DNA of 64,000 nucleotides, taken from positions 1,860,001 through 1,924,000 of the forward strand of contig OX344752.2 in assembly GCA_947034885.2 (NCBI GenBank), read 5' to 3'. The notes beneath the pieces were generated by a model. The model made no database searches and was not told where the DNA came from. It saw only the letters and a program-made list of their open reading frames with translations. Position numbers and translations under genes: made by a program. Of this stretch, positions 21,857 through 61,843 are shown in pieces (positions within the stretch are counted from its first letter, which is position 1; every line of letters starts with the position of its first letter). This DNA comes from Thuidium tamariscinum (Eukaryota > Streptophyta > Bryopsida > Hypnales > Thuidiaceae).

Positions 21857-21952
21857 ATGGGGAGCCGGGATGATTTTGATGGCGAAGTCGTGAGAGAATA
21901 TCTCCACATGATGATGTTTGACGACGGGACCATGGAGATTTACACAGAAGAG
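21857..21952 (+). CDS. Short conserved ORF (32 codons) ending at a splice donor, LTR B
   Basis: The frame starts MGSRDDFDGE and ends IYTEE, followed by GTAAATCG. It has the same length and frame as the LTR A copy at 8129-8224, with no indel and several silent changes (for example TTC/TTT, CTA/CTC, ACT/ACC). The middle YLHMMMFDDGTMEIY is identical in both. Confidence 0.4.
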
Positions 21953-22270
21953 GTAAATCGATCTCATTTGATTTTTATTCTCATTGTTTTGTTACTAAGT
22001 TTCTTTTTACCAAATGCATGGAATTAGATTTGGACAATTTCATTTGATAAAGTAGAATAGGATAGGATAGCCTAGTTGAATTTTAGAATAGAATAGTTAA
22101 AGTCATAGACTCAATTTAGATAAACAAAACGCTTTAAAGATATGACTAAAAGAGTTCATTGCTTGGAAGACTCTCTTTGAACACTCAATTAGAGAGAAAA
22201 CTCAATTAGACACAGGACTTGTGTGATAAACTTCTAGCTTGAGGGTGGAGTTAGAAGCACTCACATAGTG

Positions 22271-24627: not shown

Positions 24628-25582
24628 TTAACCACTAAAGCTCCAAATTGTGTTTTTTGGCAAAATAGCGATTTTGGGCAGCTCATTACGAATGGAGTTT
24701 TTATGTTTTTTCTTTGAAATTTTCACACAACATGTGTCCAAGGAGTATCTTCAAGGTCCAAAAAATTTCATAACTTTTGACCACATGGTAAAAAAGATAT
24801 GGCATGATATGTTGTTTTGTTTGAATTGCAGGCAACCTGGGAAGCAAAAAAAACTTCTTTAAAAATTACTTTTTCTAAAAATAAAAATTTGAATTTGATT
24901 TATTAGATTTTTATCTATGTAGAAATCTTTCATTCATTCCATTTCGATAAATGAATCAAAAGTTATGAGGAATTTTAGTTTGTGGTAGTTTGAAGGTAGT
25001 TATAGAATCTTCACTCTACAAAAAAGTTTGAAATTCTGTATTTAATTCTATTTTTTAATATTTAAGAAAAACTAGCTAATAAATTGGATGAATATTGATT
25101 ATTAAAATGTTTTAACCATTGGAATTGACATTTTTAATTTTTATGAATAAATTGTTTACAATTTAGTATTTTCAAGCATTTTCTACTTCTTTCTACTAAC
25201 TATTTTTTTCCTATATGTTATACAATTCCAAATGATTTGAAATTTTTTGAGTATATAGCCAACTTGCATTGTAAAACTAATTCTAAGAGTAACCATCATT
25301 TTGAGTATTTTTTCATAAAAATGTGACCTTGTGAAGAGCAGCTACCCGAATTTTTGCAGGGATAAAAAAAGGATTTTTGCTAGTTCAAATGTTAATATCT
25401 TGCAATCTACAAAATGGAAATTTTTGAAATTTTTTCCACATCTTTTGAATCCATTTAACTACAAGATCTAATGGTTAAATATCTCAAAAAATGTTTTTTT
25501 TCAAAAAAATTGCACTTGTATTAGAAATCATAGTTTTGGAGTGATTTTGGTGGAAACATAGTCAAAAACCTTTAGGGGTTAA
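24628..25582. mobile_element. Non-autonomous DNA element E2 (same family as E1)
   Basis: TTAA at 24628-24631 followed by CCACTAAAGCTCC; the right end ACCTTTAGGGG is followed by TTAA (25579-25582). The interior aligns with E1 in the same orientation, including GCGATTTTGGGCAG near the left end, AATCAAAAGTTATGAGGAAT in the middle and GTGGAAACATAG near the right end. More diverged than E1 at the left terminus. Confidence 0.6.
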
Positions 25583-30200: not shown

Positions 30201-30517
30201 TCACAATATTATATGTCCAATGGTCGGGGGGACATGCGGTTGGGTAGACGGGCGGACAAATCGATGCACAGATGGCCAAGCTGGGGTGGACGAGTGGACG
30301 CGCGGTTCAACGGCTGAGATAAAACAGCAGGGCAGACACTCTGACAACCGAGATGTGCCGGAGGTGTGGATGGATGTTTGGACGGCCAAGATGGAGCGGA
30401 CGTGCGGATGCACAATCAGACAATCGAAATAGAGCGGGCACGCAGTTGGACGACTAAGATGGAGCGAACGGACGGACACGTGGAGCCGGACGAGCGAGCT
30501 AATAAATGGACAAGTGG

Positions 30518-35063: not shown

Positions 35064-37641
35064 CCTTCAATTATCAATGCATTTTACAATATAAGTACAA
35101 AATCAAAAGAAACCCTTCAATCCTTAGGTCATATGTGAATGTTTCACTTTTGTATAGGTAGTAGTAATGTAGAGTACTTCAAAGCCAAACAAAAATTGAT
35201 GCCCTAAATCCCACAAAACATTTGAAAAACAAAATAAATGAGTTAGAGAAGTCTACATATGCACTACATTTTAATAATGACATTAAAAAAAAATTGAAGG
35301 TCAAATATATTGTACACATTGCACTAATGTTTTTGGTAAGTAATATACAATTTGAAGTTTGGATAGGGTTTAGGGTTTACGGTTTGGAGTGTCAATGTGT
35401 GGAGAAATAACTTGAATTACCATTTTATGCATTCATACTACATTGGATACTTCTACCATTCAATAGTTGTCAATTAAAGAATAGAAGTGAATTGGTCTTT
35501 CTCAAAATCCAATGTTCTTGCACTTGAGGACTTTCAAAATTCTAAAACACTGAATATATAGTGAACAAATAGGCAAGCATTTTGGCGGATGCACGGATGT
35601 GCGGATGGGCGGACGGCTCATTGGACGTAGAGCACACGGACGGCTAGATGTTTGGTTGAACGCTCGGAGTCATGGGGTGGACAATCAGGCTTTTAAACGG
35701 GATTTCAAAAGGAGGTTAGACAAGCAGATTGGCAAGGGCATGGACTTGTAAAAGTTTAGATATTCGGATGGACTTTCGGACTACTTGGATAAAGTGGACG
35801 TGTGGATGGGTAGAGATCGACGGCTTCGATGGGGCGGACGGGCGGACAAATGAAAGATCGGGACGACTTTGATAGGGCGGATGGATGGATGGGCCTTTGG
35901 ACGACTTTAGATGGCTTGAGACAACTTGGATGGAGTGGACGCGCCTCCAGGCGACCGAGTGGAAGATTAGATGGGTTTGATAGGGTGGACGGGTGAATGA
36001 GCATTTAGACAGCTCTAATAAGGCGGATGGTCTAACGGCTAAAATGGGGTGGACAATCAAGCTTTTAGATGCGCTTTCAAACAGGCAAATTGGCATGGGC
36101 GTAGTCTTGTTAGAATTTAGGCATTTGAACAAGCTTTCAAACAGATGGATAGGCATGTGGTGGAATGGAAAAACATTCAAAAATTCAATAAGCATTTAGG
36201 CCTAGGGTGAATTAACTATTTCACTTATGATCCTTCGGGCCTCTATAGTCTATTTCTTGTTTTGAGTTCTATTTTTATCTTGTAGTTTGTTCTTTAACCT
36301 TCATGCTTAATATTAAAGAATGAATTTAGCTAACTATAATCAATGCCTACAAATCCAATAGTACTCTAAGCTAGAGTAGTAAACATGTTTGTAAGTAATC
36401 ATTGGAGGTTTTTTGTAATGAACCTACATAAGAATTATTATATATGCTCAATATAATCTAAGATCCCTCCTTGCAAAAATACAAATGTGTAGGGGCATTG
36501 GACACTTTTAGAGTTTTTTGCAATTCTTTCATCGTTTTAACTTTCAACCCAAACATAAATAAAATTAAAGTTGACTTGTCTAATTTCATATGTAAATATT
36601 TTCTATTGGAGAATTTTGCAAGAAAACTTGAATAGAAAAAGCGAGGACGTTGGGAGATTTATTCAATTCCAACTAATGTGACTAATGCCCCTTAAGGGCA
36701 TTAGTTACATTAGTTATAGTTTAGTAAATTGGCCACAACTTTTGCATGGGCAATTAAAATTAAATTTTTTTTAATATATTCTTTTCATGATGTAGGACAC
36801 CTACTTGCAAATTTTCAAAAGCAAAGGACACTTTTAGAATTTTTTGCAATTTTTTGATGGTTTTGGCTTACAACCCAAAAATTTTAAAAATTCTAAGTCA
36901 CTTTTCCTGCTTCAAATGTCAATATGATCCATTAGGATGCATTGGAAGTATTTGGGAATTCTCAAAAAACATTGAAATAGAAAAGGCTAGGAATTTGGGA
37001 GATATGTTCAATTGTGACTAATGTGACTAATGCTTTTTAGAGGCATTGGTCACAGTTTAGTAAATTGGCCACAAATTTTGCATGGGCAATTAAAAAATTT
37101 TAAACTTTTTTATGTATGCTTTTCATGATGTAAGACACCTACTTGCAAATTTTCAAAAGCAAAGAACACTTTTAGAATTTTTTGCAATTTTTTGATGGTT
37201 TTACCTTGTTACTAATAAATAAATAAATAAAGAGTTGACTTGTTTGATTTCATTTGTTAGTATGATTGTTTAGGATTTCTTACAATTTTTTTGAATGTCT
37301 TATGCATTTTTGGAGATGATGAGGTAGAATTATAGAAGATTTGCTAGATTTTAAGTACTGTGACTAATGCCTAAAAGGGGCATCAATCACCTCAATTATA
37401 AGGTACAAAATCTTTGACAATTTCCTAGTCAAGGAATTTACATTATAATATGAGTTTGTTTGTTGATGTTGAAAATATCCCTTCTTTAAGTTTAATTTAC
37501 TCATTTTGATGAATTGATTTCTTCAAGTTTTGAAGCATTCTATTCTACTCCGTAAAACACCTTGTCGGCCCATCCGTCCATCCAACCTTCTAGCCTTTGG
37601 CTCCGAATCTTATGTCTTCTACAATTCATGTTCATCCGCCT
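35064..37641 (-). repeat. Right arm of the giant inverted repeat (inner part)
   Basis: Reverse complement of 30518-33093, collinear without net indel. The arm breaks at 37641, where a solo LTR is inserted, and resumes at 38997. Confidence 0.8.
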
Positions 37642-43938: not shown

Positions 43939-45143
43939 ATTGATTGTTATCAGTAGTGTGGATGAGAGCCGCCTTGGGTAATTGTATCAAATCAATACAT
44001 ATACTATCCCTTAGATACATGAAAGAAATATAAAAGATAGGTTTTATTTGGTGGCCTTTTGAAGTTTGTTCAACCTCTAAAGGTTCAAAATACAAAAATG
44101 GGGTTTTAAGAAATTTGGACAAGTTCCTTTTATGCCAAATTTTATTGTAATCTTTTAGAGTCATACCTTGAGGGTAATTAAGTGAATGTATTAGCTTTCT
44201 AAGAATTTAATTTTGTTTTTATTTCATTTGGTGTCTAGGAGGAAAAATTATGCCCTCTTAAGAATAAAATTCTTGAACTTGGTTACCAAAACAAGACATG
44301 TGGGCCCTAAAGAATCACCTACAAAATCACACATTGAAGAAAGTTAGATCTTTTGAAAAGATTAATTTTTTAATTAATAATCTTAATTTTTTTATATTTA
44401 AAAAAAAACTATAAAGATAGAACTATATAGACTATCTTGGGACTATTTGTAATGAATGCTCAATGTTTAAATTTTTTTGAATGAGGTAGAATCTCCATGT
44501 CCTCTTATAGGTAGGAAGAAGTGGAAGTATTTGTCATCTCTAGTGAAAGTTTAATTGAAAAATTCTACATTTTTTGAATTAAAACTTGTGTGTGTTTTGA
44601 CATTGTATAAAGTAAATATTCCATAGAACTAGATGCAAGAAAATATAAGAATTTTAAAAAGAGTTAATTTGAGTGCAATGCCATTGAAACCAAAAATCAA
44701 ATAGATTTTCAAAATGAAAAGTCAAGCTTCTAAAAGTCGATCAAAAATATGCAAAAATATTTGAAATACGTAATTCATTCAAAGGACATCTAACACTATG
44801 ATAGCTCTACACTAACAAATACAGATGTGATTGAAAATTAGAGAAAACAATAAAAATGCCTTCACCAATAGCATTCTAAAATTGGCTAACCACATAAATG
44901 CTATATTGCAATCTCGACACGGGGACAATATGCTTGGGAAGCTAGACAAACCTTAGTAGCAATCTTATTCCCCTTAAGATATTTGTTTATATCATTCACT
45001 TCAACTTGCATTGACTCTAGAAGGACGCTAGGTCCTCTGTGAAATTCATGATTTCTAAAACCGTGGAAATCATTGGTAATATAATATTCAAAAAAAATTC
45101 ATTTGAAGTCAAAGAACTATAGAAGATCTCTACTTTCTACACC
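43939..45143. other. AT-rich intergenic
   Basis: No gene recognised. ACAAGACATGTGGGCCCTAA at about 44290-44309 closely resembles the right terminus of the element at 55051-55404. I did not find its partner end, so it may be a truncated copy. Confidence 0.4.
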
Positions 45144-45441
45144 CCCAGGGAGGACACTTCTTGTATATTCGGGGGATCCACGTGCAACGGTGGGGTATTT
45201 TTAGGGGGGCTATCAATTACTTGTAATCATTACTTGGCAACATTAAAAGAGCCCCTCTTTTACCATAAAGCGGAAAAATCAGCCATATTATCATCCCTAT
45301 TTTATTTTTAAAACACTTTGCCTTTTTAATGTCCCCTATTTTATATATAAATTTCTTATAAATTTTACCCAAGATTATTTAAATGTATCCTATCTTCTGC
45401 CGCACGTAGGTTATTAAAAAACGGGAAGTGTCTTCCCCTAG
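45144..45441 (-). mobile_element. 298-bp MITE, copy 2, opposite orientation to copy 1
   Basis: Reverse complement of 34271-34568 with moderate divergence and identical length. Ends are CCCAGGGAGGACACTTC and GAAGTGTCTTCCCCTAG. Flanking 8-mers do not match, so no target duplication is visible. Confidence 0.75.
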
Positions 45442-46156
45442 ATTGAATTTTAGAAATTTTGACTATATAAATTGTAAGATATCAATGTTTAAAGTGGAAA
45501 AACATTAGATGAAATTTAGCTCTAAAGAAGACTATAAAATCCCAGACTGTGGGGAATCAAGAAACCGCACAATGGCAAGCTGAAAACAATGTGACTTGGT
45601 CGGACTTTGGATATTTTATTTTTTGTAAAATTTCAAAAATTAAAGTTAAATAAGATATCAACTTTTTTCTTGCACTTTAGCACCAAAATTTTATTTATTT
45701 ATGTTTTGGTAATTACTAGACTGATAATAGCTAAATATTTTATTAATATTTTAAGAATGGCAAGAAATAGGCTTGACATTGCTTCAAATTTCTTCTTCTA
45801 CAAGTTTTTTTGTACATTTGGTAGGACTACAATATTCAATGACTTTGAACCTTTATAATTAAATTTTTTTTACACAATAGAGTTTTAGTCTTTAAAATTT
45901 TGTTGTAAGAAATTGAATTGAGACTCTAGGATGAAAACTTCAAGAAAAAACTAATTTTAAGAAAAAATTAATTTTACTATCTTTAGGTCAAACATTTAGA
46001 GATTAATCCCTTAATCTATGAAGTCCCACCTTTCTATCATCAAAAAACACTCAAATCTACCACTAGTATTGCAAAAAGAAAAAAATTTAATCTAATTTTT
46101 TTTTTACAAATTTGACTAATAGACTAAACTAATATAATAATGTGTAGAAATTTTTT
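45442..46156. other. AT-rich flank left of the gene-capturing element
   Basis: No gene recognised. The last ~17 bases before 46157 (TAGAAATTTTTT) are also roughly inverted on the far side of the element, so the terminal repeat may extend a little further. Confidence 0.35.
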
Positions 46157-46161
46157 ATGGG

Positions 46162-46213
46162 CCCCTTGGTAGACGCTTACGCTCCATTCACTGGAGCTGC
46201 GTCTACCAAGGGG
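46162..46213. repeat. Hairpin overlapping the left terminus of the large TIR element
   Basis: CCCCTTGGTAGACGC (46162-46176) is perfectly inverted as GCGTCTACCAAGGGG (46199-46213). A nested GCTCC/GGAGC pair (46181-46185 and 46193-46197) lengthens the stem to about 20 pairs. The right terminus has only the outer half of this palindrome. Confidence 0.8.
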
Positions 46214-46330
46214 AACGGGGAACTTCGGGAGTAAAGAGGAAGCAGTGCAAATCGCGAATTGTGAAGCCGACGTTGCCATGTCGCGGGTGCGTCCTTTTAC
46301 TCCTACATCAGACGAGGTAGGTGTTGAAGG

Positions 46331-46641
46331 TGTTGAAGATCATGCACATATTAGTGTAGACCATGTACATACAACCTTAGGAGTATGTTGAGGAATATGT
46401 ACATATAAGTGTAGCCCATGTACATTCAGCCCTAGGTGTAGCATTAGACACTAGGTTAGTCTTAGAGTCCATTGGGTATTGCTCATAGTAAAAGGCAGCC
46501 CATGAAAGGTAGTTATCCCATATGGTTTGTGGATAACTCCCATAAGGCTTCTAGCTTAAGTTCAGCCCACTCATGTGGCTTGGTATCTTCCTACCATCTA
46601 AGTAAAGCCTTTCATCCATCAATACCTTTGTAATCTCAATA
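46331..46641 (+). repeat. Copia 5' LTR
   Basis: 311 bp, TGTTGAAG to CTCAATA. Aligns end to end with 50256-50566 without net indel. Confidence 0.9.
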
Positions 46642-46655
46642 GGTTATGGGCCCAC
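46642..46655 (+). promoter_or_regulatory. Copia primer-binding site matching the anticodon arm of initiator tRNA-Met
   Basis: GGTTATGGGCCCAC directly follows the 5' LTR. It is the complement of the anticodon loop and stem of plant initiator tRNA-Met (GTGGGCCCATAACC), not of its 3' end. Priming from an internally cut tRNA is known for Drosophila copia and yeast Ty5. Confidence 0.75.
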
Positions 46656-47050
46656 GCACTTGGAGTTGCGCTTGAGGGTGAAATTCAAATCATTTGGAGG
46701 AGATCTTGGAGCTTGGAGGAGCAATCAACCTTTTGTGTCTTTTCACCTACAAACCATATGGTGTGAGTATTTTTTTGAAAACACACTTTGAGTGCATTTT
46801 TTTAAAAAGGAAGAGGAAAGTTTTGTTGCTTTCTCATTGGCTGGTTTGTGAGGTTTTGAGTACATTTTGGAGGAGAGGTTGCTTATGGTGGTAATCAGAC
46901 CTAGTTAAGACTGGTTGCATGCTCCTAGTTTGAGTTTGCTTTTAGAAGTGTGCATTGAGAGTCATTTGAGGTTGAATTGTGCACTTGGGTGCATTGTTGA
47001 GAGTGATTGTGAGCCTTGGAAGTATGTTTGGGATGCTTGAGGCGTTTGCC

Positions 47051-47390
47051 ATCCATTGAGGGCTGATTAGTACCCTTGTGAGTGAGTGAGGCGAATTTGT
47101 GGACTTGGTGAACTTAAGAAGGCTGATTAGTGCCCTTGTGAGTGAGTGAGGCGATTTAGTGGATTTTTGTGAACCCTAGAGGGCTGATTTGAGCCCTTGT
47201 GTGTGAGAGAGGTGAATTAGTGGATTTTGCAAACCCTAGAGGGCTGATTTGAGCCCTTATGTGTGAGAGAGGCGAATTAGTGGATTTTGTGAACCCTAGA
47301 GGGTTGATTTGAGCCCTTGTGAGTGAGAGAGGTGAATTAGTGGGTTTTGTGAACCCAAGAGGGCTGAATTGTGCCCTTGTGAGCCTTGTG
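47051..47390 (+). repeat. 60-bp tandem repeat in the Copia leader, about 5.5 copies
   Basis: Units start with GAGGGCTGATTTGAGCCCTT at about 47118, 47178, 47238, 47298 and 47358, with an earlier diverged unit from about 47054. The 60-bp period keeps one minus-strand frame open as a 20-residue repeat, which is a shadow and not a gene. A second, ~90-bp duplication lies at about 47660-47850. Confidence 0.75.
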
Positions 47391-47873
47391 GAGCCATTGA
47401 AAGCAAAGTAGGATTCTTTGGTGGCTTGGTCATCCAACTAGGGTTGTTGGAGACCATTGTTGTCCTTGAGGTGTTGATTGTGAGTAGGAGCTTCCATCTA
47501 GGGATGATTGGAAGCCTAGAGCTCCTTGGAGTGTGGAGTACCCTCTTTGTGAGGAGGGCTTGTTGAATTGAAGTAGCACTAGCTCATGATGTCCATGTGT
47601 TGGACTTGAGCTTGATTAGGGTTTGAATTGGTGTTGAGAGGAGGTGATGCACATGTGAGGAGTGTTTGGCCATCCTCGGTGTTCAAAGGATCTTTAGAGG
47701 TCCTTGTAAGGGCTTATTGGTGCCATTTCAGCCCTATTGGCTGCCAAGGGAATGTTTGGTCGTTCTTGGAGCTAAGAGGATCTTGGGAGGTCCTTGTGAG
47801 GGCTGAATTATGCCATTTCAGCCCCATTGGCTGCCAAGGGAGTGTTTGGAGGCTGAATTGAGTTTTTCAACTC

Positions 47874-50170
47874 TTGGAGACACATTGGGTGTTGCCAATA
47901 AGTGGGAGGTGCTTTACCATGGCATCAAGTGGAGGAGAAGGCGTGCACATCATTGACAAGTTTGATGAGGAGAATGAGTCCCAAGGGGAGGGATCAGCCC
48001 TGGTCTCAAGACATGGGAGAGGAGGCAACACCAAGGCGTTCAAGGAGACAAGGACGTGCTTCAAGTGTAGCAAACCAGGCCACATTGCTAGGGATTGCAA
48101 GGGCAGCGAAGCCAAAGACAAGGAGAGTGCACACCAAACCTCTAAAGAGGAGGAGGAGGAGATCGCCTTTGCCACCCATGGAGGAGGGGAGAAGGCCAAC
48201 ATCTTTACTTGGATTGTAGACTTGGGGGCCACCCAACATATGACCAGCCATCGGGATGCCTTCCACACCTATCAGCCCATTTCGGGGAAGAAGATTTATT
48301 TGGAAGACAATGGCATGGTGGAGGCCCTTGGCAAGGGGGAGATCCTTGTGGAGGTGCAAGTGAAGGGGCTGACCAAGAGGATCTAGATCCAAGAGGCCCT
48401 CCATGTCCCCAAGTTGCATGCCAACTTGCTTTCGGTGAACCAATTGTCTTTGGGAGGTTTGAAGGTTCATTTCAACAAGGTGGGGTGTGTTGTGAAGGCA
48501 CCAAGTGGAGTTTTGATAGCATCAGCCCCTCGTGAGGGCCACTTGTACCCCCTCCACTTCACCAAGGTGAATGGTACTTCTTTGGCTTGTGTTGCCCAAG
48601 GATCAGCCCAAGGATCAGCTCATGGAGACCTTGTGGAGCTTTGGCATAGGAGGCTTGGGCACTTGAATGTGAAGAACATGAAGAGTCTCCAACACTTTGT
48701 GAAGGGGCTGAACTTCTTTTCTTGCAACCATGATTGGAGTTCTATGGTGTGCAAGGGGTGCATTGAGGGCAAGCAAGCAAGGCAGCCCTTCCCCAAGGAT
48801 GGGGCAAGCCGAGCCACCAAGCCATTGGAGCTTGTGCATTCAGATGTGTGTGGGCCGATGAAGACCACAACCATAGGAGGAGCAAGGTATTTTGTGACCT
48901 TCATTGATGATTTCTCTCGCAAGGTGTGGGTGTATATGCTGAAGTACAAGAGTGAGGTGTTTGGGCGTTTTGAGACTTGGAAGGCCTTTGTGGAGGCCCA
49001 ATCTAATTGCAAGGTGAAGGTGCTGCGGTCAAATAATGGAGGGGAATATGTGTCCAAGGCCTTTGAGGAGTACTTGAAGGCCCATAGCATTGAGCACCAC
49101 ATATCAGCACCTTACACTCCTCAACAAAACGGTGTAGCGGAGCGTGCAAATCGCACCATTGTAGAGATAGCAAGGTCTATGATTCATGGCCAAAGGCTGA
49201 AGTATGAGCTTTGGGGGGAGGCGATGTCTACAGCAATTTATACAAGGAATCGGTGCCCCATCCAAGCCTTGACAAGCATGACACCCCAAGAAGCTTAGAG
49301 TGGGATTAGGCCCCATGTGTCTCACATGCGGATTTTTGGGTGCATGGCCTATGCATTGGTCCCAAGTGCCAAGAGGACCAAGTTGGATGCCAAGGGCATC
49401 AAGTGCCTTTTCCTTGGTTATTATGAGGGAACCAAGGCTTATAGGCTGATGTGTGTGGAGAGCAAGAAAATCATCAAGAGTAGAGATGTGACCTTTTTGG
49501 AGGATGGAAGTGTTGATCCAAGCTTTTGGAGATGAGCCCAAGTGGGAGAAATGGAGGACCAGCCCATGTGGTGGACACAACTCCAAGAGTGCACATGGAA
49601 GATGATGGAGATGAAGAGCAAGGAGGGGAAGATGAGGACTTGGTGGAGCCCAAGAAGAAGGTGACTACACCCCAAGTGAAGAGATCAACAATTCCTTCTC
49701 CAAGCACTTCACCAAGAGAGCAAGAGCATGATCAGCCCTTGGAGGAGCAAGAGGAGCCACGTTATCCAACAAGGACTCATAAGCCTCTAGGAGATTGGTG
49801 GCTGAATCACATTCTTCCCCTACAACGTGAAGAAGAAGCCAACCTAGCTTGCTTTGGAGATGCAACCACACTTGGAGAAGTGTTGGGTTGTGAAGATGCA
49901 AGCAAGTGGGAGTTGGCTATGCAAACGGAGTGCAAAGCCCTAGGTACACCACTTAACACTCATGAGGAGTTGCCAAAGCTCATAGATGACGAATTTGAGG
50001 AGGCGAGGGCTGAAATGCAAGGTGTGCCTTATAAGACAGCGGTGAGTTCTTTGAAGCATGCCATAGAAGCCACAAGGACTGATTTGGCATTATCAGTGAG
50101 TGTTGTATGTGAATCCATGTCTAAGTATGGCCCAAAGTGTTGGACAACGGTCAAGAGAGTATTGAGATAG
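47874..50170 (+). pseudogene. Copia gag-pol remnant: zinc knuckle, protease, integrase, reverse transcriptase deleted
   Basis: One frame from 47874 to 49535 carries a CCHC zinc knuckle (CFKCSKPGHIARDC), the protease region, the integrase HHCC finger (WHRRLGHLN, CKGCIEGK) and the integrase core up to AYRLMCVESKK. Lesions: TAG at 48384 and 49296; the protease DSGA motif reads DLGA (TTG at 48222-48224); and the second catalytic Asp of the integrase reads Asn (RSNNGGEY, 49032-49034). There is a frame change near 49530. The next frame (49526-50170) jumps from WELAMQTECKAL at the start of reverse transcriptase to PYKTAVSSLKHAIEATRTDLA near its end. Most of the enzyme core is therefore missing. No RNase H domain was recognised. 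Gag upstream of the knuckle is replaced by repeats. Confidence 0.85.
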
Positions 50171-50255
50171 TTTTATGGCGTACTTGGTAAGCCACCAACC
50201 CAAACTTGATTGCAATGATAATTCATTGCACCTTTGACTACTCTCAAAGTGGGAG

Positions 50256-50566
50256 TGTTGAAGATCATGCACATATTAGTATAGACCATGTACATACAGC
50301 CCTAGGAGTATGTTGAGGAACATATACATATTAGTGTAGCCCATGTACATTCAACCCTAGGTGTAGCATTAGACACTAGGTTAGTCTTAGAGTCCATTGG
50401 GTATTGCTCGTAGTCAAAGGCAGCCCATGAAAGGTAGTTATCCCACATGGTTTGTGGATAACTAGAGAAAGGCTTCTAGCTTAAATTCAGCCCACTCATA
50501 TGGCTTGATATCTTCCTACCATCTAAGTAAAGCTTTTCATCCATCAATACCTTTGTAATCTCAATA
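50256..50566 (+). repeat. Copia 3' LTR
   Basis: 311 bp, preceded by the polypurine tract at 50246-50255 and followed by the GAAGG duplication. Confidence 0.9.
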
Positions 50567-51336
50567 GAAGGCACACCCAGGCAAAGGAGAGGGGAGGAGG
50601 TTGCTGATTGTGGTGAGGAAAGCAGTGCACCCATAAGAGAAGACCGGAAATCGAGTAGATCTGCCCCGAGAGATTGAGATGGCCCTAGACAATGAGGGAC
50701 CCCAAGAGATTGTAGTGACTCAAGAGAGTGAAGGACTCCAAATGATGACCCAGGGCAGCGTTGTACTTCAAGAGAATGCATTGGTCCAGGGTGATGTAGA
50801 GTCCAGTCCCTTGGAGGGAGAGCACCAACTTGTAAGTACTCGAACCTCCTCACTTGAGATATATGTCTCGAATCGGGTTACGGAAAGCCCAGTTCCAGAG
50901 CCTCTTCTGGGAAACTCACTCGAGGATGCTCGCTGTCCAGAGGAATCAGCAACTGGAGTCATGGACAATGCGATTGTCATTTGTTCTGAACCCGTCGTCC
51001 CTTGCCGTCCGAATGGAGCTGGATTCCAGGATTTGCATCGCAAACATGTCGAACTCCTGGATGTGCACCAGAAGGAAGTTGCAGGTTTGCTTTCAGAAGT
51101 AGAGATGACAGTGGTGTCCGATAAGATCTTTTTTCTTTGGAGTATACATACTCTGCGTGCACACAAGGCATCCAAGGCGCTAAGAAAAACATAAACAAGG
51201 ATTAATCGTACGCCTCTTCAGAACTAGGGTAGGAGTAAAGACTATGTCACTTAGATACTCTTAGTGCGAGCCAGTATTGATTATCAAAATTTTGCATCTC
51301 AGATTCAATGGGTTGAGCGAAGAGTGTTACAATTAC

Positions 51337-51428
51337 CTCAGTATGACTCAAAGAAAAGAATGTAAGTTGCCCATCTGCTGAGCCTGAGATGCCTCCCACT
51401 CCTGGCCCATCGAGGACAATGCTAAGGA
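51337..51428 (-). pseudogene. Possible WD40-repeat exon fragment
   Basis: On the minus strand an AG acceptor precedes a 92-base open segment encoding LSIVLDGPGVGGISGSADG..LTFFSLSHTE, then GTAATT. The GISGSADGQL pattern is what one WD40 blade looks like. Downstream of the RPC1 homology, a start [16 protein letters not shown] (about 51666-51713, minus) could be the first exon of the same gene. I cannot name the gene. It may be another captured fragment, fused to the RPC1 piece at about 51714. Confidence 0.3.
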
Positions 51429-51713
51429 CTGCCACTCAAAAACAAAGAACAAAACAATTGAGTTGCGAGAAAACGCATTGCAAAAAACTATTTTCACTGA
51501 CAATGCAAAACTCTTTCCGAAAAACAAACAAGAGCATAATCCTACGCGCCAAGCTATATACACAAAAAGCTAAGCGAACCTGTCTGGCAACACTACTGTG
51601 AGTCCAGTCCCTCAGAGTCTCGCAGGATGTTCGGCGCAGACTCTCGTAGGATGTTCGGCTCATATAGGATGGGCGGAGGAAGTGGAGGAGGAGGCCGACG
51701 GGCGTCCATCATC

Positions 51714-54420
51714 TCGGCCAGTGAAGTCCACTCTTTTCCCAGACAGATTTCCACGAAACCGACCCTGCTTTCCCTTCAGACGTTGTACAAATCCGCGAGG
51801 TTGCTTGCCGGAAGTGGGCTGTTCAGATCGGGGTACTGGTGTTTCACTGTTGATTAGTTGTGACACCTGTGACTGAAGGAGTTCCCAAGTTTCCTACATA
51901 GCATAAAAATCACCCAAATGAAGTTACGAGCGTAATTGATATATCTAGATAGCTCCTCTGCCGTTAAACTTTGCTTTTCAGTCAGTCCGTGCTTCCACCT
52001 CACATAAAATAACGAAAAGGGAGGGCATAATATCAACAAACTGCATCAAATACTGACATTTTGACCTCTTAAAACTACATCCAATTCCAGCTTACCACAA
52101 GCCAAAATCAAGTTTTAGATACAAACACAGTAAAGTACTTTAAACTCGAACATCACGAAGTACAATTTTAAACAAAAAGGAAAAATAACCTACCATGGTT
52201 TTTTCAGCTGCCAACCCTTGCTCCACGCAGGTACGAAGAGAATTGTTGCAGTTCAGAATTCCTAAAAGTCGTACTGTAATGTCATCCTCATTGCTGGTTT
52301 CAATAAGTCCAACAAGAAAGAATTAAATCTCATGGCACATTGCTCACAGGGGTAAAAGTTGACTGCTGATCATTCTGTAGTCCCAAGGAAATTTTCATTA
52401 CAGCTTCGTCATTAACAGAAAAAATAAGAGATCAGCTAACGAATTACAAATTCTAAGAAACCATCACAAGACTAGCATATACAACTGATAGGAACTGGTG
52501 AATTGCCTAAGATCCAATTCTACTCAACCTCTCGAATCGAACACTACTCTTTAAACCCACCTTCCAGCTGTGGATTCCATTTCCACTGAAGGTCGGATGG
52601 CCACTGGGGGCACTATCAAGTGCGTAACAATCAACTTTTCAGGCCTCTCTGCTAAATCTAGTAGCTCGCAATCCTGCACAGATCAAGGGGGCCGATAAAC
52701 TTGTTGCAATGCATGTACTTTGCTCCGCTACAAACATATATTATATCTCAAATTATGGGCAACGGAACAGATAATTCTTACTAAAAAGTGAGCACGGTAA
52801 GCACGAGATACCCGTTCCACCATAGCTTCGAAAAGCTGAAGCACTCGAATAGGATCAAGGTTGTCATAAACGCGATGAACACAATTCTTCAACTCAGGCC
52901 TGCATTTCATCGCATCCTCTAATGATGTTATCATCTCGTCCTTAAGATCCAGAGCCTTGGAATACTTGTCATGGATGAGTTTCACAGGGGGCTGTGCCAT
53001 TTTCTTCACCGTCCCTAGAGAAAAGACCACCGAGTAATACCCATCAACTACTATTACTCCATAGTCTACCCCGCCGCTGGAACTCTACCAGTGTCATGCA
53101 TCCAAACATGTTAAGGCTAATGAACTACCAGCTCCATTGATCAGAATGAAATACAGGATAACAGTAGCAAGGGCTCATACCATTATAATCTCCACAACGA
53201 GTACAAACGCGCACACGTTTACACCTATCCATAACCTTTTTTAAAACTGCTCGTCTCTGCAGCACCTCAATTCTGGGATTTCGCATCTTGCAAAGGATCA
53301 CTTTGCACTCCTCCTCTGGCATTAAAATTCGGGAGCACGACTGCATTCGTTCCAATCTCCAAGAGAATAAGAATCAATAACAGTACAATACAATAAGAGG
53401 AAGATGCATGAATGATAACACTCACCAATGTGACGTTCTGGACAGGTCACAGGCGGACAGCAAATCCCGATTAGAACTAGATTAATGGAGTACAGCCACA
53501 GAAAGACATTGCTGCAGCCCAGACAAAATAAAAAAAGAAGAAATGATTGAAATACCTTGCAGATGCACTGTAAAATCTGTAGAATATTTTTGAGATACCC
53601 AATGTGAAAGACTGGCATCTCGAGCTTTGTGTGACCGAAATGCCCCGGACAGTCTGCCAACTTTCCAAAACAAGTTGTCCCCTTTCTTGTTTGTTGTTCC
53701 CTATTCCAGAACCACCAACATTGTAAGTGCCATGGTGGGACTCGCAACCGCTACTGCCTAGAAGACATGTGGAAGAATTTATTGAGTACACCAAGTAAGA
53801 AAACAGGAACAACACTTTGCACGTCTCATATACAGCTAAACCCTAAACCCTAACTGCCAGGTGTTTCTGCTAAGAGCGTCTTAATTTCCTCATCAAATTT
53901 GGCTAGTCACCTGGCAAAAAATATCTGACACAAGAGAACAGTTGAAAAAAACGTCTGAACCAGATCCCGAGAAGATAGCCATAATAATAATGAGATCATT
54001 TTAATAGACTGTATTGACATGCCACATTCACTTATGAGGCTCTGATTACGTTTCTCATTATATGACTAGAGTGAAGCGAAAATGTGAATAAGAGGCATAC
54101 CAGCCGCGTATCTACAACCGAATATGGAGCTGGCTTCCTCTCAGGCATGGTGTAAAGCATTGACTCGTACACATGCAATTCCGAAGCCTTGACGATGTCT
54201 TGTTTCGACATTGTCCCGAAACTAATGCTTTCGCTGCAACCACCGAACAACGTTAGGCCTTATTTGAGTCTCTAGTATGAATCCATCTCATACGTGGTCT
54301 CAAAAGACGCATATAATCTGCGAGAAGGGAGGGTGAAAAGACTCACATCTTACGAGGTCCAATATCCTCAATGAAGGGCCGTTTGGAGAAATTGATGGAG
54401 GCATGAGCTTGTGGAATTGG
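51714..54420 (-). pseudogene. NRPC1: RNA polymerase III largest subunit (RPC1) N-terminal fragment, eight exons
   Basis: Exons (minus): ~54420-54357, 54233-54101, 53700-53556, 53340-53181, 53014-52812, 52673-52561, 52293-52194, 51893-51714. All internal introns have GT-AG ends and phases agree. The translation follows RPC1 from KRPFIEDIGPRKI and SISFGTMSKQDI through LADCPGHFGHTKLEMPVFHIGY (zinc region), [25 protein letters not shown] and NEDDITVRL to [16 protein letters not shown] and KRVDFTGR, then stops matching. This covers only about the first quarter of the ~1400-residue subunit; the active-site NADFDGD region is absent. No in-frame ATG precedes exon 1. Exon 3 (145 nt) needs a frameshift near 53690, which removes the first zinc Cys. 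It is a captured fragment, not a working gene. Confidence 0.85.
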
Positions 54421-54854
54421 CGCTCTAGTTTTATTGTGCACTTAGGGGCATCTACTGGACACTATTATTGTAACCCTAAATTGTTAATTTCAGTATGTGG
54501 CTATTGGATCAGGGTGTAGAAACGGCTCCTTCAGAATTCGTAAGGATTCGAGATTTAGCTGTCGTAATAGGATCTCCATTCATTTTGCTTTGCGGGATGA
54601 TTTTGGAGGGATAGAAATTAATACCGATGAGAAGTTTTATTTTGTTGGTGCACATTGCAATCCTACACCAGCGAGGGCTTGCGTCTATGTTCGTTTTCAC
54701 TTCTGGTGAACTTGGAGTTCTTGAAATTAAGCTTGTAGTAGATATTGAAGTGTCGGGATCCACTATACTGAGATAGAATCTATAAATTGATCATTTTGGT
54801 ACGTGGCTGTTGGATTAGGGCGTAATAAGGGCTCCTTCGGATTAAGACTTCGCT
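54421..54854. promoter_or_regulatory. Divergent intergenic region between the RPC1 fragment and the OEP7-like gene, with a ~65-bp duplication
   Basis: A segment at about 54487-54550 (TGTGGCTATTGGATCAGGGT) recurs at about 54783-54845 (CGTGGCTGTTGGATTAGGGC), just upstream of the OEP7-like start codon. It may hold a promoter captured together with the genes. No TATA box is clear. Confidence 0.35.
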
Positions 54855-55070
54855 ATGGGGGCGATTGAGACGGCAATTCTTGTGTTGGTGGCCCTGGTTC
54901 TAGGCTGGGGAGCTGTGGAGATAGCTTGCAAGCCATGCATGGAATCAGGCCGAGCGGCTATCAACAGGTCTTTGGATCCCGATTACGACCCGGATGATGC
55001 GATTCCCAACACTCCATATGTGGAAGCTCCTCATCCTGTCGAGGAGCCTAGGGCCCACACGTCTTGTTAA
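54855..55070 (+). CDS. OEP7-like chloroplast outer-envelope small membrane protein
   Basis: A 71-residue protein, MGAIETAILVLVALVLGWGAVEIACKP... It has one membrane segment (about residues 4-24) directly followed by a basic-flanked KPCMESGRAAINRS stretch and the acidic DPDYDPDD motif. This is the layout of plant OEP7/E6.7 signal-anchored proteins, which insert into the chloroplast outer envelope with the N terminus as both signal and anchor. Arabidopsis OEP7 is about 64 residues and has the same EIAFKPF..DP..DPDD pattern. The frame is intact and without an intron. The last six residues (RAHTSC) and the TAA are encoded by the terminal repeat of a small transposon inserted at 55051-55404. It sits inside the large TIR element, so expression is uncertain. 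Confidence 0.65.
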   Translation: MGAIETAILVLVALVLGWGAVEIACKPCMESGRAAINRSLDPDYDPDDAIPNTPYVEAPHPVEEPRAHTSC

Positions 55071-55404
55071 GAACTTTTGACCATGTATATATGGAAGATA
55101 ATTGTGATTAAAGTAAAGAAAACTTGATTTTTTCCAAAGTGTATGATTAGATTGTAAGACTTTCAATCTTATTAAATTAAAAATTTTGTATCCAATATTT
55201 TAAATTTCTAATTCCTTATATTGAAGAGTTAAATTAAGAATTTTAAGAAAAATTAAAGAAAAAATATTAATTATCATCCTTTAAAATTTGTTACATAGAA
55301 GCTCATATGAGATAGAAGAAAAAGCTAATTTGTTAAATAATTCTAAGATGAAATTCAAAATCAATAAAATATTTAGATAACCAAGAAACAAGACGTGTGG
55401 GCCC
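55051..55404. mobile_element. 354-bp MITE with GGGCCCACACGTCTTGTT ends, TA duplication
   Basis: A perfect 21-bp inverted repeat: CTAGGGCCCACACGTCTTG.. at 55048-55068 and its reverse complement at 55387-55407. With TA as target duplication (55049-55050 and 55405-55406) the element is 354 bp. The interior is very AT-rich and non-coding. A TA target fits Tc1/mariner-type MITEs. One related terminus lies at about 44290. Confidence 0.75.
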
Positions 55405-55557
55405 TAGACTCTAAACCCTAAATACACTTGAACATAAATCTGACAGATAATTCATGACAGATAATCCATGCCTGCATAATGCAGTACTTTCAACGGATAT
55501 AGTCCAGATCGTCCAAATCGTTCTCCCTCAAAAGAATGATAGTAAACCTTCGATAAA

Positions 55558-56067
55558 TTAACCCTCAACCGTCACAGCAATGTTCGGTGTAATTTCAAAA
55601 CCTGTGACGTTTAAGAGTTGAGCCTTCTGAAATCCAATTTGCCGAGTATACACAGAAGAAAAGAGAAGCGGTAGCAGGACATGCAGCAACGGGGGCCAGA
55701 CATAACCTTGTCCAGGACGTGGAAGTGCCATTCTTGCTCTCACTCTCGGTGCGCGAGGTCGGTTCCGATTGTGGGAACGATTCGTTTCTAAGTCACAGGG
55801 AATTGAATCCCGAGCTTGACGATGGAGACTTTGCGATTTGGAGTGATTTTGCGCCAACTGAGGTCGTGAACTGGTCCAAGGATTGGCGTTTAGGACGATT
55901 CCTTTATTTGTTGGTTGGAGTCTGAAATTTGGATTGGTTCGCAATCGAAGGATGCGAGTGAGAGCTTGTTTCCAATCTCGAATGTCGAGATACTTGGATC
56001 CCGTATTTTTGGGGGATCTCGTGCAAAACTCAGGATTTGAGGTGGAAGTTTGATTGAGAGCGATCAA
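55558..56067 (-). CDS. Uncertain ORF with a hydrophobic C-terminal part
   Basis: A 169-codon minus frame. Its last 58 residues, from a second Met (MALPRPGQGYVWPPLL), include a hydrophobic segment HVLLPLLFSSVY and look more protein-like than the Asn/Arg/Ser-rich front. I do not recognise it. It lies between the OEP7-like gene and the CPSF-A-like fragment inside the large TIR element and could be a first exon of yet another captured gene, or a chance frame. Confidence 0.2.
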   Translation of the reverse strand: MIALNQTSTSNPEFCTRSPKNTGSKYLDIRDWKQALTRILRLRTNPNFRLQPTNKGIVLNANPWTSSRPQLAQNHSKSQSLHRQARDSIPCDLETNRSHNRNRPRAPRVRARMALPRPGQGYVWPPLLHVLLPLLFSSVYTRQIGFQKAQLLNVTGFEITPNIAVTVEG

Positions 56068-56720
56068 GAACAGGGTTCATAGAGTTTTCTGAATTGAATC
56101 CGTGCTGGTGTGATTGAGGAATTGAATATGTGATAGCTCATTTGACGCTTGTAAATGAAGAAGTGAACCAATGTTCGAGTGGAATAGAATTTCTCGAAGA
56201 TTGTTTTATTTCATTAATAAGTTTATTCAACGGCAACGTGTTATTGCCGTTGTAAATTATTCTACAAGCCTGCCTTCAGGCGGAACATGTATTGTCGCTT
56301 CTGATTTTTAGGGTTTTGAAGGGTTTTCATTCCAGCTGTCGATTTGAGCCAATTGTGCAAGGTTTTCCACTGACGAATTATGTTGGTAAAGTGGAATATT
56401 TACAAGACTCGGCCGAAAGCAATTGGTTAAGAAAGAGAATGAAGAGCTATTGCGACGAGGAAGAAGCGATGTATGGCGATGGTCGTGGTTCGGAATCAGG
56501 CATCTCAATTGTAGTTTTTGGTTTTGTAGAGTTGGAAGCGTTTGGTTGATTAGGACAGTGCTAATTGGAGCAAAATTTTATGAGATGATCGACTGGGTAC
56601 AAATGCAGTACTTACAGCAGATCAACTGCCGTGGTTAGTGGAGAAATTTATCCTCCGTTGACGGAAGTGGAGGCGTTGGAGCCACGATAAGGTCACATTG
56701 AGAATAATAGTGAAGAAGCC
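56068..56720. other. Non-coding interval upstream of the CPSF-A-like fragment
   Basis: Short overlapping plus frames (56292-56549, 56423-56638) lack known motifs. Probably the 5' region of the next gene. Confidence 0.3.
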
Positions 56721-59216
56721 ATGGCGGTCCAGGATGGGGGAGGGGAGGATCCAGGAGAGGCAATTAAAGCGCGCTATGTAGCGAAATGTGTGCAGAAGAG
56801 CAGCGTGGTATTGCACGCTGTTTATGGGCATATTCGATGCTCTTCTACTTTTGATGTTGTACTTGGCAAGGTAAGATAAATTGTTTACTGCGGAGCATTT
56901 TTCTTCTTAAATTTGAAATTTCGAATTTTGTCTTTCTCTCGCGTTCCGATTCTTTTGATTATTCGCTAATTCAGCTCCGGGAACGAGTAATCAAAGAGAT
57001 TTCAATTATGGGTTAGATTCTTCTGCGGGGCTAATTAAAGGTCTTGCATGCCTTGTTTTAAGCCAAAAGCATTTTGAGCGTGTTATTTGTTTAGTTTCAC
57101 CCCGTTTACGGTAGAATACTCTTCGTATGTTAACGAAATTGCTTTCCTTGTAATGCTCATTGAGAGAAAGTGACTAGCTCTACAAATTAATATGAGTCGC
57201 TTTGGCTTTGTAAATTGTATTTTTGGCAATGTCCTTCGTGGGTGAGGCTGTCGAATGCAACGGAACAGCTCAGATTTGACGTTTATACCTCAAATTGAGA
57301 TCTTTGATGAAGGATATCACGTCCAGGGTATTTCTGGCTATCTTTGTAGTAGAAGAGGGAGTTTGTTTTGCTGTTGCATTCTTTGAATGTAGGTAATGCT
57401 TAATCGTGTGTCGCTTAAAATTTTTCCTGACAGGAAACATCACTGGAGCTTGTGGTCGTGAGTGAGGATGGGATTGTCCAGTCAGTTTGCGAGCAGCCAG
57501 TTTTCGGGACTATCAAAGATCTTCAGGCTCTACCCTGGAACGAATCCCGTCGAAGTCCTCTTCCATAGGTTTTTGAATCTCTGAATATCCACTTATTTTC
57601 ATCATCCTTTGCCGTTATCTGAGTTGCCATCTACTGTGTTTAAGTGTAAGAAGTAAGCAAGAGTGCATCTGCTCGTATAGCGTATTGTCGATATTAGCAG
57701 TTGCCTCCCTAGTATTACATGTGTGGATTGCGCATGTAGCTTAATCTGAATAGAGGCAATTTTATGTCAAAGTAGACTTTGCCTAATCTTTGTGAAAACA
57801 CTTGATGTCATTTCATTTTTGTGGCTGTTCTTGTTTGAGAAATTGTCTAATGCAAATGTCTAAGATTAGCGTTCTCAAATTGGTTCATGCAGACATACGA
57901 GAAGGACTTGCTAGTGCTTCTTTCGGATTCCGGGAAACTCTCTTTCTTAACTTTCAACATTGAACTCCATAGGTATTTCTTTCTTTCTTTCTTTTTTTAG
58001 TCTGAAGCAGCACAATAGTGAATTTAGGTGCTTTAGCGGTGTTCTTATTTTTTGACATGACTAATCGACCTTGGATTATACAAAATATTACGTGAACCTT
58101 TATCATGCCTAAGTCTTGATTTGTTTTCTTACAGTGCACAACAGAAGTTGTGACTTTGCTACGTATCTCTATCACCTGTTAGCTTCAAACTAGAGAATTG
58201 CTATCATTTCTTAGAAGACTGAAGATCGACTGTGTCGCTGTGGTTTTGTCAAATTTTTGGTTGTTGCCCATGTCCAAATTGCAGATTATGGAAACTTACG
58301 GCGAGAATTGGGAAGACTGTTGGCGATTGAGCCCAGGTGATTTACTTGACAGAAGTCATGTTTATCACGTAAATATTGTTCAAGAATCAGATAATGCTCA
58401 CATTTGTAGCGTACGTTTTTTATGTTCACGGGCATGGTATCCCTTCAACCATCAAAAGTGGCTTAAATTTTATGATTTTTGCAATGTGCAGGGGTCGTGC
58501 AGTCACTGTCGCTGCTTTTGAAGATAGAATTGCAATTTTTCCCACCTCCATAGCCTCTGGAAATAACATTGTTGATAAGGTTTCTTTGCCTGCCTTCCCT
58601 TTTCCCTTCTGTGAGAAAATGTAGCAATGTGGTTCCTAAATAGTTCTACTTTCTACTATCAAACTGAAGTGCTTCCTTGAGTGATATGGTTTCAGACTTG
58701 GCCTCTCATATACCGGTGTTGCTGATGTGGTTCACAGAGAATGATTTATCCAAAAGAGCTGCTGACCTCGATAGGATTATCGGAAGTAAGCACTAGCGGA
58801 GTCGAAGAGAAATTCACAGGCTGGGGAACGGTCTGGAGTATGACGTTTGTTGGCATGCCAAACGACCACTTACGTTAACAGCCAAGCCAGAGTCGCTTCT
58901 ACTTCTTGTAGTTCTTGTTCACAGGAAAGGTGCTGCAAGCAATGAAATTTTTATCCTTACGTGCGATACCAAAGAGCGGATCATTCAGGCGAAGGCTCGG
59001 TACGACCCGTCTACAATAAGACCCTTCATATCATCCCTTGGGATAAGTATTTTGGATGTTCCTGCAGCTCCTGGTTTTTTACTACTTTCTCAGTCAAGAG
59101 AACTGTTCCTGCGAGATTATGAGCCGAAGATCCTGCGAGAGTCTCCGGCAAACTGCGCCGATTTCTCTCAATTTTTTCGTGCTCCATAGCTCAAGCACTT
59201 GCTTCCGCCTGTGCAT
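56721..59216 (+). pseudogene. CPSF-A/DDB1-like protein (MMS1_N region), N-terminal exons only, broken
   Basis: Exons: 56721-56870, 57434-57568, 57893-57972, 58285-58336, 58492-58579, 58738-~59216, each with GT-AG borders where internal. The translation (VLHAVYGHIR, ETSLELVVVSEDGIVQSVCE, FGTIKDL, DLLVLLSDSGKLSFLTF, LGRLLAIEP, GRAVTVAAFEDRIAIF) follows the N terminus of the plant CPSF-A/DDB1/SF3b3-type protein represented by Arabidopsis At3g11960. Breaks: TAG at 57566-57568, the last codon before the exon 2 donor; the exon expected at about 58136 is not readable; a frame change near 58875; TAG at 59186-59188. Homology runs out at the right terminus of the large TIR element. It covers about a quarter of a >1300-residue protein and is a non-functional captured fragment. 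Confidence 0.7.
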
Positions 59217-59284
59217 CGCGTAAGCCGATTTGACCCCGTTCCACCCGTTCCCCGTTCCCATCAGGGCCGAAGTTCCCTATATTG

Positions 59285-59313
59285 GGAGCGTAAGCGTCTA
59301 CCAAGGGGCCCAT
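59285..59313. repeat. Right 29-bp terminal inverted repeat of the large TIR element
   Basis: Perfect reverse complement of 46157-46185. Just inside it GGAACTTCGG- and GGAACGGGG-type words (reverse complement) are shared with the left subterminal region, though the order differs. Confidence 0.8.
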
Positions 59314-61843
59314 AAAAATCTCTCTAAACTTCAAGATTTTACTTTTTATTTATTTTTTTCATAGATTATATTTATATCTATATGGGAAGAAATGATACAC
59401 TTTATTTAGGTCAATGATGTTAAAGTCATGGCTCAGGGAGGTCTCTCCTTATAAAAATAAGGATATAGGTGCGAACATCTAGTAATAAACAAGGGGTATT
59501 ATTATTTTATTTTATTTTTTGTACACCCTATCATTATGTAATTTTCTAATTTTATTTATTAAAAAGGGGGCATACATTATTTGTAATGTCCAATTGTCAC
59601 AAATATATCACATACTATCTTACTTCAATTTTTTTCTTTATATGCAAAATTTTTATAAAGTCCTATACCATTTGTAAAGTGCCATAGAATTTGTAAAGTG
59701 CAACACATTTGTAAAGTGCCATATAAACTACAAAGAAGGAACTGAATGTCTACATGATAGATGATAACCAAAGTGTGTTATTAAGCTAAAAATGTGTTGA
59801 ACAACACAAAAACCTTAGTGTTCAAATGCTTAGAAATCAGAGTTTACAAAACCTATTACAAGCCTGAAGTTTACAAATGTGCTTTTAGAAGAGTAATGTG
59901 GATAAGCAAAAGTCTCTCAAAACTTACATTGTCCATGGAAAAATGAAAGCACAAATGCTAACTTCCACAGCCCCTAGTTTTTCCATGACAAAATCTTCCC
60001 TTGCACCACAAAAGCACTAGCATTAGAAGTGTTTCTATTCAATCAACAATACCTGTAAAAAGTGTTCATAAAAGTATTACAAGTGCAAAATATGAAGAGG
60101 GTTTAGATTTTAGTTTTTTCAAGTGCACATATCCTAGAACCCAAACAAACTGCAGCCTCAATTTGGACATTGCGATGGAGAGATCCACAATCTTGAATTT
60201 GCCTCAAAATTCCTCCCACTACAACTTTAACCTCCTTGGTACCCCAACCCTTCAACAACTTTGATCACAAGTCCTGTAATATACTCAAGTCTCCTAGTGG
60301 TGTTGTACATAGGGTCTTATGCACATCCATCTACAAAGATCATGTACAAAAAAACATAGAGTAAGCCAAATTATACTTGGTAACTACTCATGTTATATTT
60401 CACTTCCTTGTTGATGACCTAAAACGAGAAACTCCACAAGGTTTCAGCGCAATGAAATTTGCCATTGCAATTTGGAGAATGGCATAATGCAAAAGATTCT
60501 TTACATTGTCACACCATTCCTTGCAGGTTGTGAGCAGGCAAGTAGGTATCCTAAAATCCTAAATCCCAAACCCTAAGTCATGTTTTTGTAATGTGATAAG
60601 TTATCTCTAAGGAATAGTTTTTCCTTGATCTTTTACAATGGTTTTTTGTGCATAATATGGTCTAAGCTCATATAGATACATGTACACTAGTGCAAAGTGT
60701 TTTTAAAATAAATAAAAGTACTAGTAGTATACTTATTCTTTTTGGTCATTATGCCAAAAATGAAAATATAATGTATAGAATATAGCTTATGGCCTTTAAT
60801 ACACATACCATAATTAGTGCTAGCATTATTTATAAAATACTAATAGATGGATCTTTTTTCTGTTAAATATTACACTATATCAAAAGGAAAAAATACTAAT
60901 TGACATATGGCACATATACAATATACATACAAGGAGAAATTGATCAAATGGTATTTGCTTTCAAGTTCCTATTAATATTATTAGTACAACTTAATTTGTA
61001 AAGATCAATATTTTAATTACAAATTCAAGCCTGATTTGAAACTATTAGTTCAAGTACTAATTCAAACATTGGTATTTGGTCCTTTGACCTCAATTAGTTA
61101 TTTGTAGTATTGAGTACAATTTTCCTAATGGATTATAGAAATAACTATTCCATCTTCTCCTTCTATTAACTACCTGATCTTCAAGATTAACGATGGATAA
61201 TTTGATAAATACATGTAAACAATTACTGCACTCAGGCTACTAACATTTGTTATTATTCTTTTAGTTAATCCAAATTGGTGAAGATTTATTAAGCTAATAA
61301 TGTCCACTTGAGGGCTGGCAACCTTTTGAGCCCTACAAATCCTAAATACAAGCACTAATGGAGGGATGTTGAAGCTCCATTGTTTATATACAGTGAAGCT
61401 TGTACCTAGTAGCTAATGGGACTTGAATGAGAGTATAAAGCCAAAGTTAGACACTCATATTCAACACACTTAAAGCTTGCTGGCATATTTGTTTGGTGGT
61501 CTCGGGTGATTGTTGTAATTGTTGAATTTTAGCAAAGGCAAAATGGTAGCTTCACAAGTCACTTTAGAACACATAATGTTGTTATATTATTGGGCAATAC
61601 TATATGGCTATCTTTTTCTTGATTGTTTGTTGAAATTTTTTGGTTTTTAAATTATTTGTGAAGAGTGCTAACAAGCTGTTGCAGGCTTAAGACATCTTAT
61701 CTATGATAAGTACACCAATTTCTTTGTTGTGTTGGCCATAGAGACAAGTGAGGTCCACAACTTCAAGGAATTATTTTCCATATAGCTCTCCTCAAGCTAA
61801 AGGCAGATAACTAACTCAATACTAAGGGGAAATTAAATCATAT
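59314..61843. other. AT-rich intergenic
   Basis: No gene recognised. A ~20-bp repeat (ATTTGTAAAGTGCCATA) occurs three times at about 59668-59730. ORFs such as 60001-60264 lack recognisable features. Confidence 0.4.

Follow-up and report, generated by a model that had tools for sequence, protein, structure and literature searches.

Introduction

Most descriptions of gene capture by terminal inverted repeat (TIR) transposons concern flowering plants. Papers on the subject deal with maize, rice, Arabidopsis and tomato (PMC13317346, which reviews capture mechanisms; PMC3310237; PMC8903248), and in maize it is common for a Pack-type element to combine DNA from several loci, with a width that correlates with their number (PMC8903248). 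Host DNA between transposon ends is also found in the Pack-TIRs of animals, for which gap-filling and FoSTeST (repair and template-switching) models have been put forward (PMC8277862). For mosses, the titles and abstract openings of the open-licence papers listed by our searches gave no case of gene capture by a TIR element, a scope that does not establish absence from print, and the “gene capture” of the Sphagnum genome paper concerns sex chromosomes (PMC9946827). Here we describe a 13-kb block within 64,000 nt of the moss Thuidium tamariscinum (assembly GCA_947034885.2, contig OX344752.2, positions 1,860,001 to 1,924,000 of the forward strand; this whole stretch is called the window, and its first letter is position 1), which is probably a non-autonomous Pack-type TIR transposon whose four-gene cargo came from more than one locus. 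The kind of element is already known; its unusual features are its occurrence in a moss, how large the gene pieces are, and termini without a superfamily match.

Like the Pack-TYPE elements and Pack-MULEs (from Mutator-like elements, MULEs) of flowering plants, the block encloses fragments of host genes between inverted termini, shows no transposase among the ORFs scanned and probably carries a multi-locus load, but it differs from them in its moss host, in the lack of both a superfamily match and a resolved target duplication, and in carrying large pieces of four genes over ~8.9 kb (not counting a nested Ty1/copia element). The animal Pack-TIRs share with it the presence of host DNA between transposon ends. 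MULEs are defined by target duplications of 9–11 bp and by long TIRs; in the block, a duplication placed at the TATGGGCCCC start agrees at 6 of 9 nt, which is not above chance, and the likeness of the TIRs past 34 nt is weak. An additional TIR copy at one or both ends, mostly in tandem, is known for some MULEs (PMC3310237), whereas the extra terminus copy of the block is inverted. Closer in host are the moss elements PpTc1 and PpTc2 (1,584 and 1,709 bp), which have 33-bp TIRs, a TA target duplication and CAGT...ACTG ends and encode a transposase (PMC4054914): the block resembles them in its host, in TIR length and, in one reading of its flanks, in TA, but it ends in TATGGGCCCC or GGGCCCC and, unlike them, has no transposase among the ORFs scanned. 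The ISL2EU group of the PHIS superfamily makes 2-bp AT duplications at A|AT|T targets, and the duplication of PIF/Harbinger is a 3-bp TWA (PMC4482050). AT is one reading of the block's flanks, but in the context T|AT|A, and the block offers no transposase for comparison with that of ISL2EU. At the TGGGCCC start the left flank is TTA and the right one TAA, with no direct repeat.

Results

Inverted termini and the absence of a transposase

The two ends of the block form an inverted repeat that is paired at 34 of 34 nt (Table 1); a sequence-only reading made earlier on the same DNA had announced perfect inverted termini of 29 bp, which is right in all but the length. With up to three mismatches allowed, the 18-nt core of the terminus occurs three times in the window (both ends and the partial inverted copy at the left one), while shuffled sequences gave a mean of 0.01 and reached three copies in 0 of 100 shuffles. 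Together, the complete identity and this control rule out a chance inverted repeat. The termini are oriented outward, as in the ends of a single element, and a 13-nt module (GGGAACGGGGAAC) is common to both, a short distance inside each; beyond the 34 nt the likeness of the two ends is weak, with no clear similarity further inward. At the left end, a strong hairpin is predicted for nucleotides 46157–46216 (folding energy −40.3 kcal/mol, computed with RNA parameters and without a shuffle control). Exact matches to the terminus among virus and prokaryote genome contigs numbered zero, as expected for a plant element. Each terminus is also readable inward as the start of an open reading frame (ORF; MGPLVDAYAP.., from 46157–46159 and 59311–59313). 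This reading is probably due to chance, although an origin of the termini from a coding exon is conceivable.

Table 1. Features of the block and its boundaries, in window coordinates.
Feature	Position	Strand	Basis or remark
Left terminal inverted repeat	46152..46185	+	34 nt perfect; core TATGGGCCCC.. or GGGCCCC..
Partial inverted terminus copy adjoining left terminus	46188..46216	-	Core search; hairpin with left end
Probable 5' beginning of the coding sequence in the DUF7806-relative fragment (MSRVRPFTPTSDEVGVEG), interrupted by copia	46278..46330	+	Three-frame reading of joined copia flanks
Defective nested Ty1/copia element	46331..50566	+	Long terminal repeats, 5-bp duplication, domain matches
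Plant gene fragment, P0001 relative	50572..51140 (end approximate)	+	Protein match
Two 24-bp tandem units (PNILRES if read on minus strand)	51613..51664	-	Repeat search
5' fragment of RPC1 (RNA polymerase III largest subunit) gene	51714..54432	-	Protein match; 8 exons by reading
Small OEP7-like gene, first 65 residues	54855..55049	+	Comparison with relatives
MITE-like insertion, perfect 20-nt inverted ends TAGGGCCCACACGTCTTGTT	55049..55406	.	Inverted-repeat search
5' fragment of CPSF-A/DDB1-type gene, ~6 exons	56721..59117	+	Protein match
24-bp-unit repeat tract at CPSF-A breakpoint	59118..59153	+	31/36 identical to inverted partner 51629-51664
Right terminal inverted repeat	59285..59318	-	34 nt perfect

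Outside the copia element, a Pfam search of 35 of 35 stop-to-stop ORFs of at least 70 aa found no DNA-transposase family (shorter ORFs being mostly unscanned), in agreement with the earlier claim that a transposase is absent; the only family above cut-off was RNA_pol_Rpb1_1. Between 45000 and 60500, no RNA family reached its gathering score. A bacterial promoter scan of the right end has no bearing on moss DNA.

A nested Ty1/copia element and a possible minimum age

The Ty1/copia element inside the block was overlooked by the sequence-only reading. Its long terminal repeats (LTRs; 46331–46641 and 50256–50566, 311 bp each) differ at 19 positions, a 5-bp target duplication (GAAGG, 46326–46330 and 50567–50571) flanks it, and Pfam recognises zinc knuckle, pre-integrase and integrase domains. 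No domain was found at 49517–50167, in a Pfam scan that covered part of the element's ORFs, and from a reading of these ORFs the reverse transcriptase part seems mostly missing. The LTR divergence (K ~0.064) corresponds to ~2.5–6.4 million years at assumed substitution rates of 1.3e-8 to 5e-9, and the putative Pack-type element would be older than the copia inside it. Since 4.2 of the 13 kb are this later insertion, leaving ~8.9 kb, the load that had been called unusually large and multi-gene keeps its four gene pieces but loses part of its size.

Front parts of four host genes

Four host genes are represented in the cargo by their front parts, namely a relative of a DUF7806 protein gene (+), RPC1 (-), an OEP7-like gene (+) and a CPSF-A/DDB1-type gene (+). 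Among the matches listed, the named nearest relatives of the last three are mosses (for RPC1 and CPSF-A, the best 120 of 778 proteins). Damage is seen in three of the four pieces and introns in both large ones, RPC1 and CPSF-A. Because these introns were kept, the two large pieces came without an mRNA intermediate, which rules out retro-copying for them.

The RPC1 piece corresponds to residues 20–392 of a 1412-aa metagenome protein (P0002), with residues 91–99 unaligned, and is 84% identical to it and 77% identical to Sphagnum jensenii (among the matches listed). Spliced, it covers profile positions 2–312 of 312 of RNA_pol_Rpb1_1. No start codon was seen, approximately the first 19 residues being without a match, and exon 3 contains a frame break. 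The intron-containing N-terminal piece of RPC1 that had been proposed on the minus strand is thus present and cut off, with this residue range as its extent.

The CPSF-A piece, which also retains introns, is 85% identical to the Ceratodon purpureus protein P0006 (1383 aa), which it matches from residue 1 to ~304. It has a frameshift near 58870, and near 58252 an acceptor shows AA in place of AG (the exon start being set by homology). Its homology ends between ~59100 and 59117; the match to P0007 stops at 59117, and the BLAST alignment with P0006 continues past a gap, at low identity, as far as 59174, an extension (59117–59174) that we read as repeat, not gene. The earlier description of a plus-strand piece cut at the right terminus therefore holds as to truncation and introns, but the piece ends ~200 nt short of that terminus. 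A possible WD40 exon had also been proposed; it belongs to the CPSF-A exon sequence, which rules out a separate WD40 gene. No further part of the RPC1 and CPSF-A proteins was matched anywhere in the window (E <=0.01). Upstream of the CPSF-A piece lies a minus-strand ORF of 172 aa (55561–56076), for which we obtained one Pfam match far under cut-off and, over its last 57 residues, a match to one solved chain (E 0.07).

To the right of the copia element lies the ORF at 50637–51191, for which one of 29 candidates gave a match. This is P0001, identical to it at 69 of 168 aligned positions. In P0001, DUF7806 occupies residues 148–243 and the well-matched part stops just short of it; this reference is possibly incomplete. 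When the copia flanks are joined, an open frame with MSRVRPFTPTSDEV extends from the left end toward this ORF, with a frame change between the two, and we infer that the segments on either side of copia are parts of one gene. This gene would be truncated, apparently changed in frame and interrupted by copia. What had been noted as an unrecognised ORF beside the left terminus is accordingly a piece of a host gene, and an element-encoded protein is ruled out by its relationship to P0001.

The OEP7-like piece is nearly whole (65 of ~82 residues). After these 65 residues it continues into an altered 6-residue C-terminus and a stop at 55068–55070, giving a product of 71 aa vs. 81–94 aa in all 13 relatives listed, with divergence beginning after HPVEEP. 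Among these 13 proteins, identity is highest with one from a metagenome (97%), followed by 86% in Ceratodon and 83% in Physcomitrium, and, unlike the other three pieces, this one has no lesion upstream of its cut. Where its homology ends begins an insertion resembling a miniature inverted-repeat transposable element (MITE), of which a further family end (TAGGGCCCACACGTCTTGTT) lies left of the block at 44290–44309. The gene claimed by the sequence-only reading is therefore there, minus its C-terminus, under a label that Pfam does not support (no family at cut-off), its Ceratodon relative being annotated as a “hypothetical protein”. Between it and RPC1 we also observed a 59-bp direct repeat (54477–54535 and 54783–54841, 80% alike), the second copy of which stands directly upstream of the OEP7-like start codon.

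Pack-MULEs are known to favour the 5' parts of the genes they capture. That four of four pieces here are front parts is suggestive of a 5' bias, with the caveats of the RPC1 start, the near-whole OEP7-like piece and the completeness of P0001. The frameshifts, the missing start codon and the lost acceptor fit a cargo that is not in use.

Repeat tracts at the gene breakpoints, and gene order in Ceratodon

Tracts of a 24-bp repeat stand at the breakpoints of both large pieces, one lying 49 nt past that of RPC1 (51714) and the other beginning where CPSF-A homology ends. A 22-nt probe blended from this repeat had three matches in the window at <=3 mismatches, all of them within the block (two at 51614–51659 and one, inverted, at 59123–59144). 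Being mutually inverted, the tracts frame the RPC1/OEP7/CPSF-A section like an inner second pair of inverted ends. They could mark places where element and cargo were joined long ago, or represent a repeat that is common in the host and at which capture broke off. A literature search with the term EPNILR returned no paper.

Two of the relatives in Ceratodon bear locus tags of chromosomes 2 and 3: M758_2G071500 for the OEP7-like gene (longest contig 26.6 Mb) and M758_3G031700 for CPSF-A (24.0 Mb). Provided that the tags reflect chromosomes, the two are not adjacent in that moss. Neither RPC1 nor the DUF7806 protein had a Ceratodon relative among the matches listed.

Other repeats in the window

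Elsewhere in the window, positions 30517–37640 form a long palindrome (arms of 2574 nt with 5 differences, a 1976-nt spacer and ~330-bp repeated units in the arms), which is either a very recent foldback element or an assembly artefact; no target duplication was seen for it. An inverted 305-nt pair, 92% alike (34264–34568 and 45144–45448), has its second copy just left of the block and probably represents two copies of a small repeat. LTR-like direct repeats ~10.76 kb apart (4769–6396 and 15541–17158) enclose a GC-rich glycosyltransferase gene (12602–14640), and parts of 6476–11495 are repeated within 20097–25376.

Discussion

Under the reading that we consider probable, a transposase acting in trans would recognise the termini and move the block, and the gene pieces would have entered as DNA copies, in two or more steps, through gap filling or template switching during repair, or through fusion of neighbouring elements. 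The 24-bp tracts at the RPC1 and CPSF-A breakpoints would then mark old joints between element and cargo, and the DUF7806-relative piece would have been in place before copia arrived, because copia sits within or beside it.

The Pack-type gene-capturing transposon of the sequence-only reading is borne out in its anatomy and gene content, and the Ceratodon tags are consistent with it, but several observations weigh against it. We found no convincing target-site duplication: in a scan of lengths 2–11 at 15 start offsets the best readings were 7/11, 6/9, or 2 bp TA/AT, none above chance, and random pairs of local flanks equalled the best score in 24.6% of 2000 trials (a control on 12 of those offsets), while the 2-bp TA or AT readings say little, standing as they do beside a palindrome. 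The termini match none of the superfamilies compared, which bears out the earlier remark that TA/GGGCCC ends lie outside the plant families that could be named. Their 34/34 identity is itself slightly unexpected if they are at least as old as copia, the chance of zero differences being ~0.11 on the divergence of the copia LTRs, provided that the block's left part predates the copia insertion. The OEP7-like frame is open, with first 65 residues up to 97% identical to a relative, and such conservation is more what one expects of a recent or useful piece than of cargo that has long been dead. Lastly, the chromosome argument from Ceratodon is limited to two of the four genes and comes from a different species.

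Alternatively, a single contiguous host segment (RPC1 – OEP7-like – CPSF-A, 51.7–59.1 kb) of ancestral neighbours would have been captured in a single event and truncated on either side, the DUF7806 relative being a separate acquisition. The inverted 24-bp tracts near both breakpoints frame just this section, and RPC1 and the OEP7-like gene stand head to head across a ~0.4-kb spacer, as ordinary neighbours might. We nevertheless regard this history as unlikely, given that the OEP7-like and CPSF-A tags fall on different Ceratodon chromosomes, which speaks against one syntenic host block for these two genes while leaving the matter unsettled in Thuidium itself. The end of RPC1 homology at residue 20 without a start codon, too, may be an internal joint, although divergence of a low-complexity N-terminus is an alternative cause. 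Unlikely as well is the view that there is no transposon at all, and that a decayed segmental duplication or rearranged zone happens to hold two separate, opposed copies of one element end; it would account for the lack of a target duplication, and the window has many other repeats and inverted copies, but the ends face outward and share the inner 13-nt module, and the gene pieces stop within them.

Two further explanations appear highly improbable. Working, clustered host genes with conserved inverted boundaries would explain the open and well-conserved OEP7-like frame, but RPC1 and CPSF-A are truncated with frame breaks and further lesions, and the DUF7806 relative is truncated, apparently changed in frame and split by copia. 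Helitrons typically carry a multi-gene, intron-bearing cargo, as seen here, but they are not known to have long perfect inverted repeat ends, such as those that bound this block. Returning to the Pack-type transposon, it is tempting to speculate that it represents a TIR lineage of mosses that belongs to none of the named plant superfamilies, is marked by GGGCCC ends, a foldback left end and joints made of 24-bp repeats, and serially packs the 5' ends of several genes into a single element, but we think this quite doubtful.

A moss case with several large, intron-bearing gene pieces that can be dated by a nested copia element would suggest that gene capture is old in land plants, and the block would supply a testable set of joints for the mode of DNA uptake.

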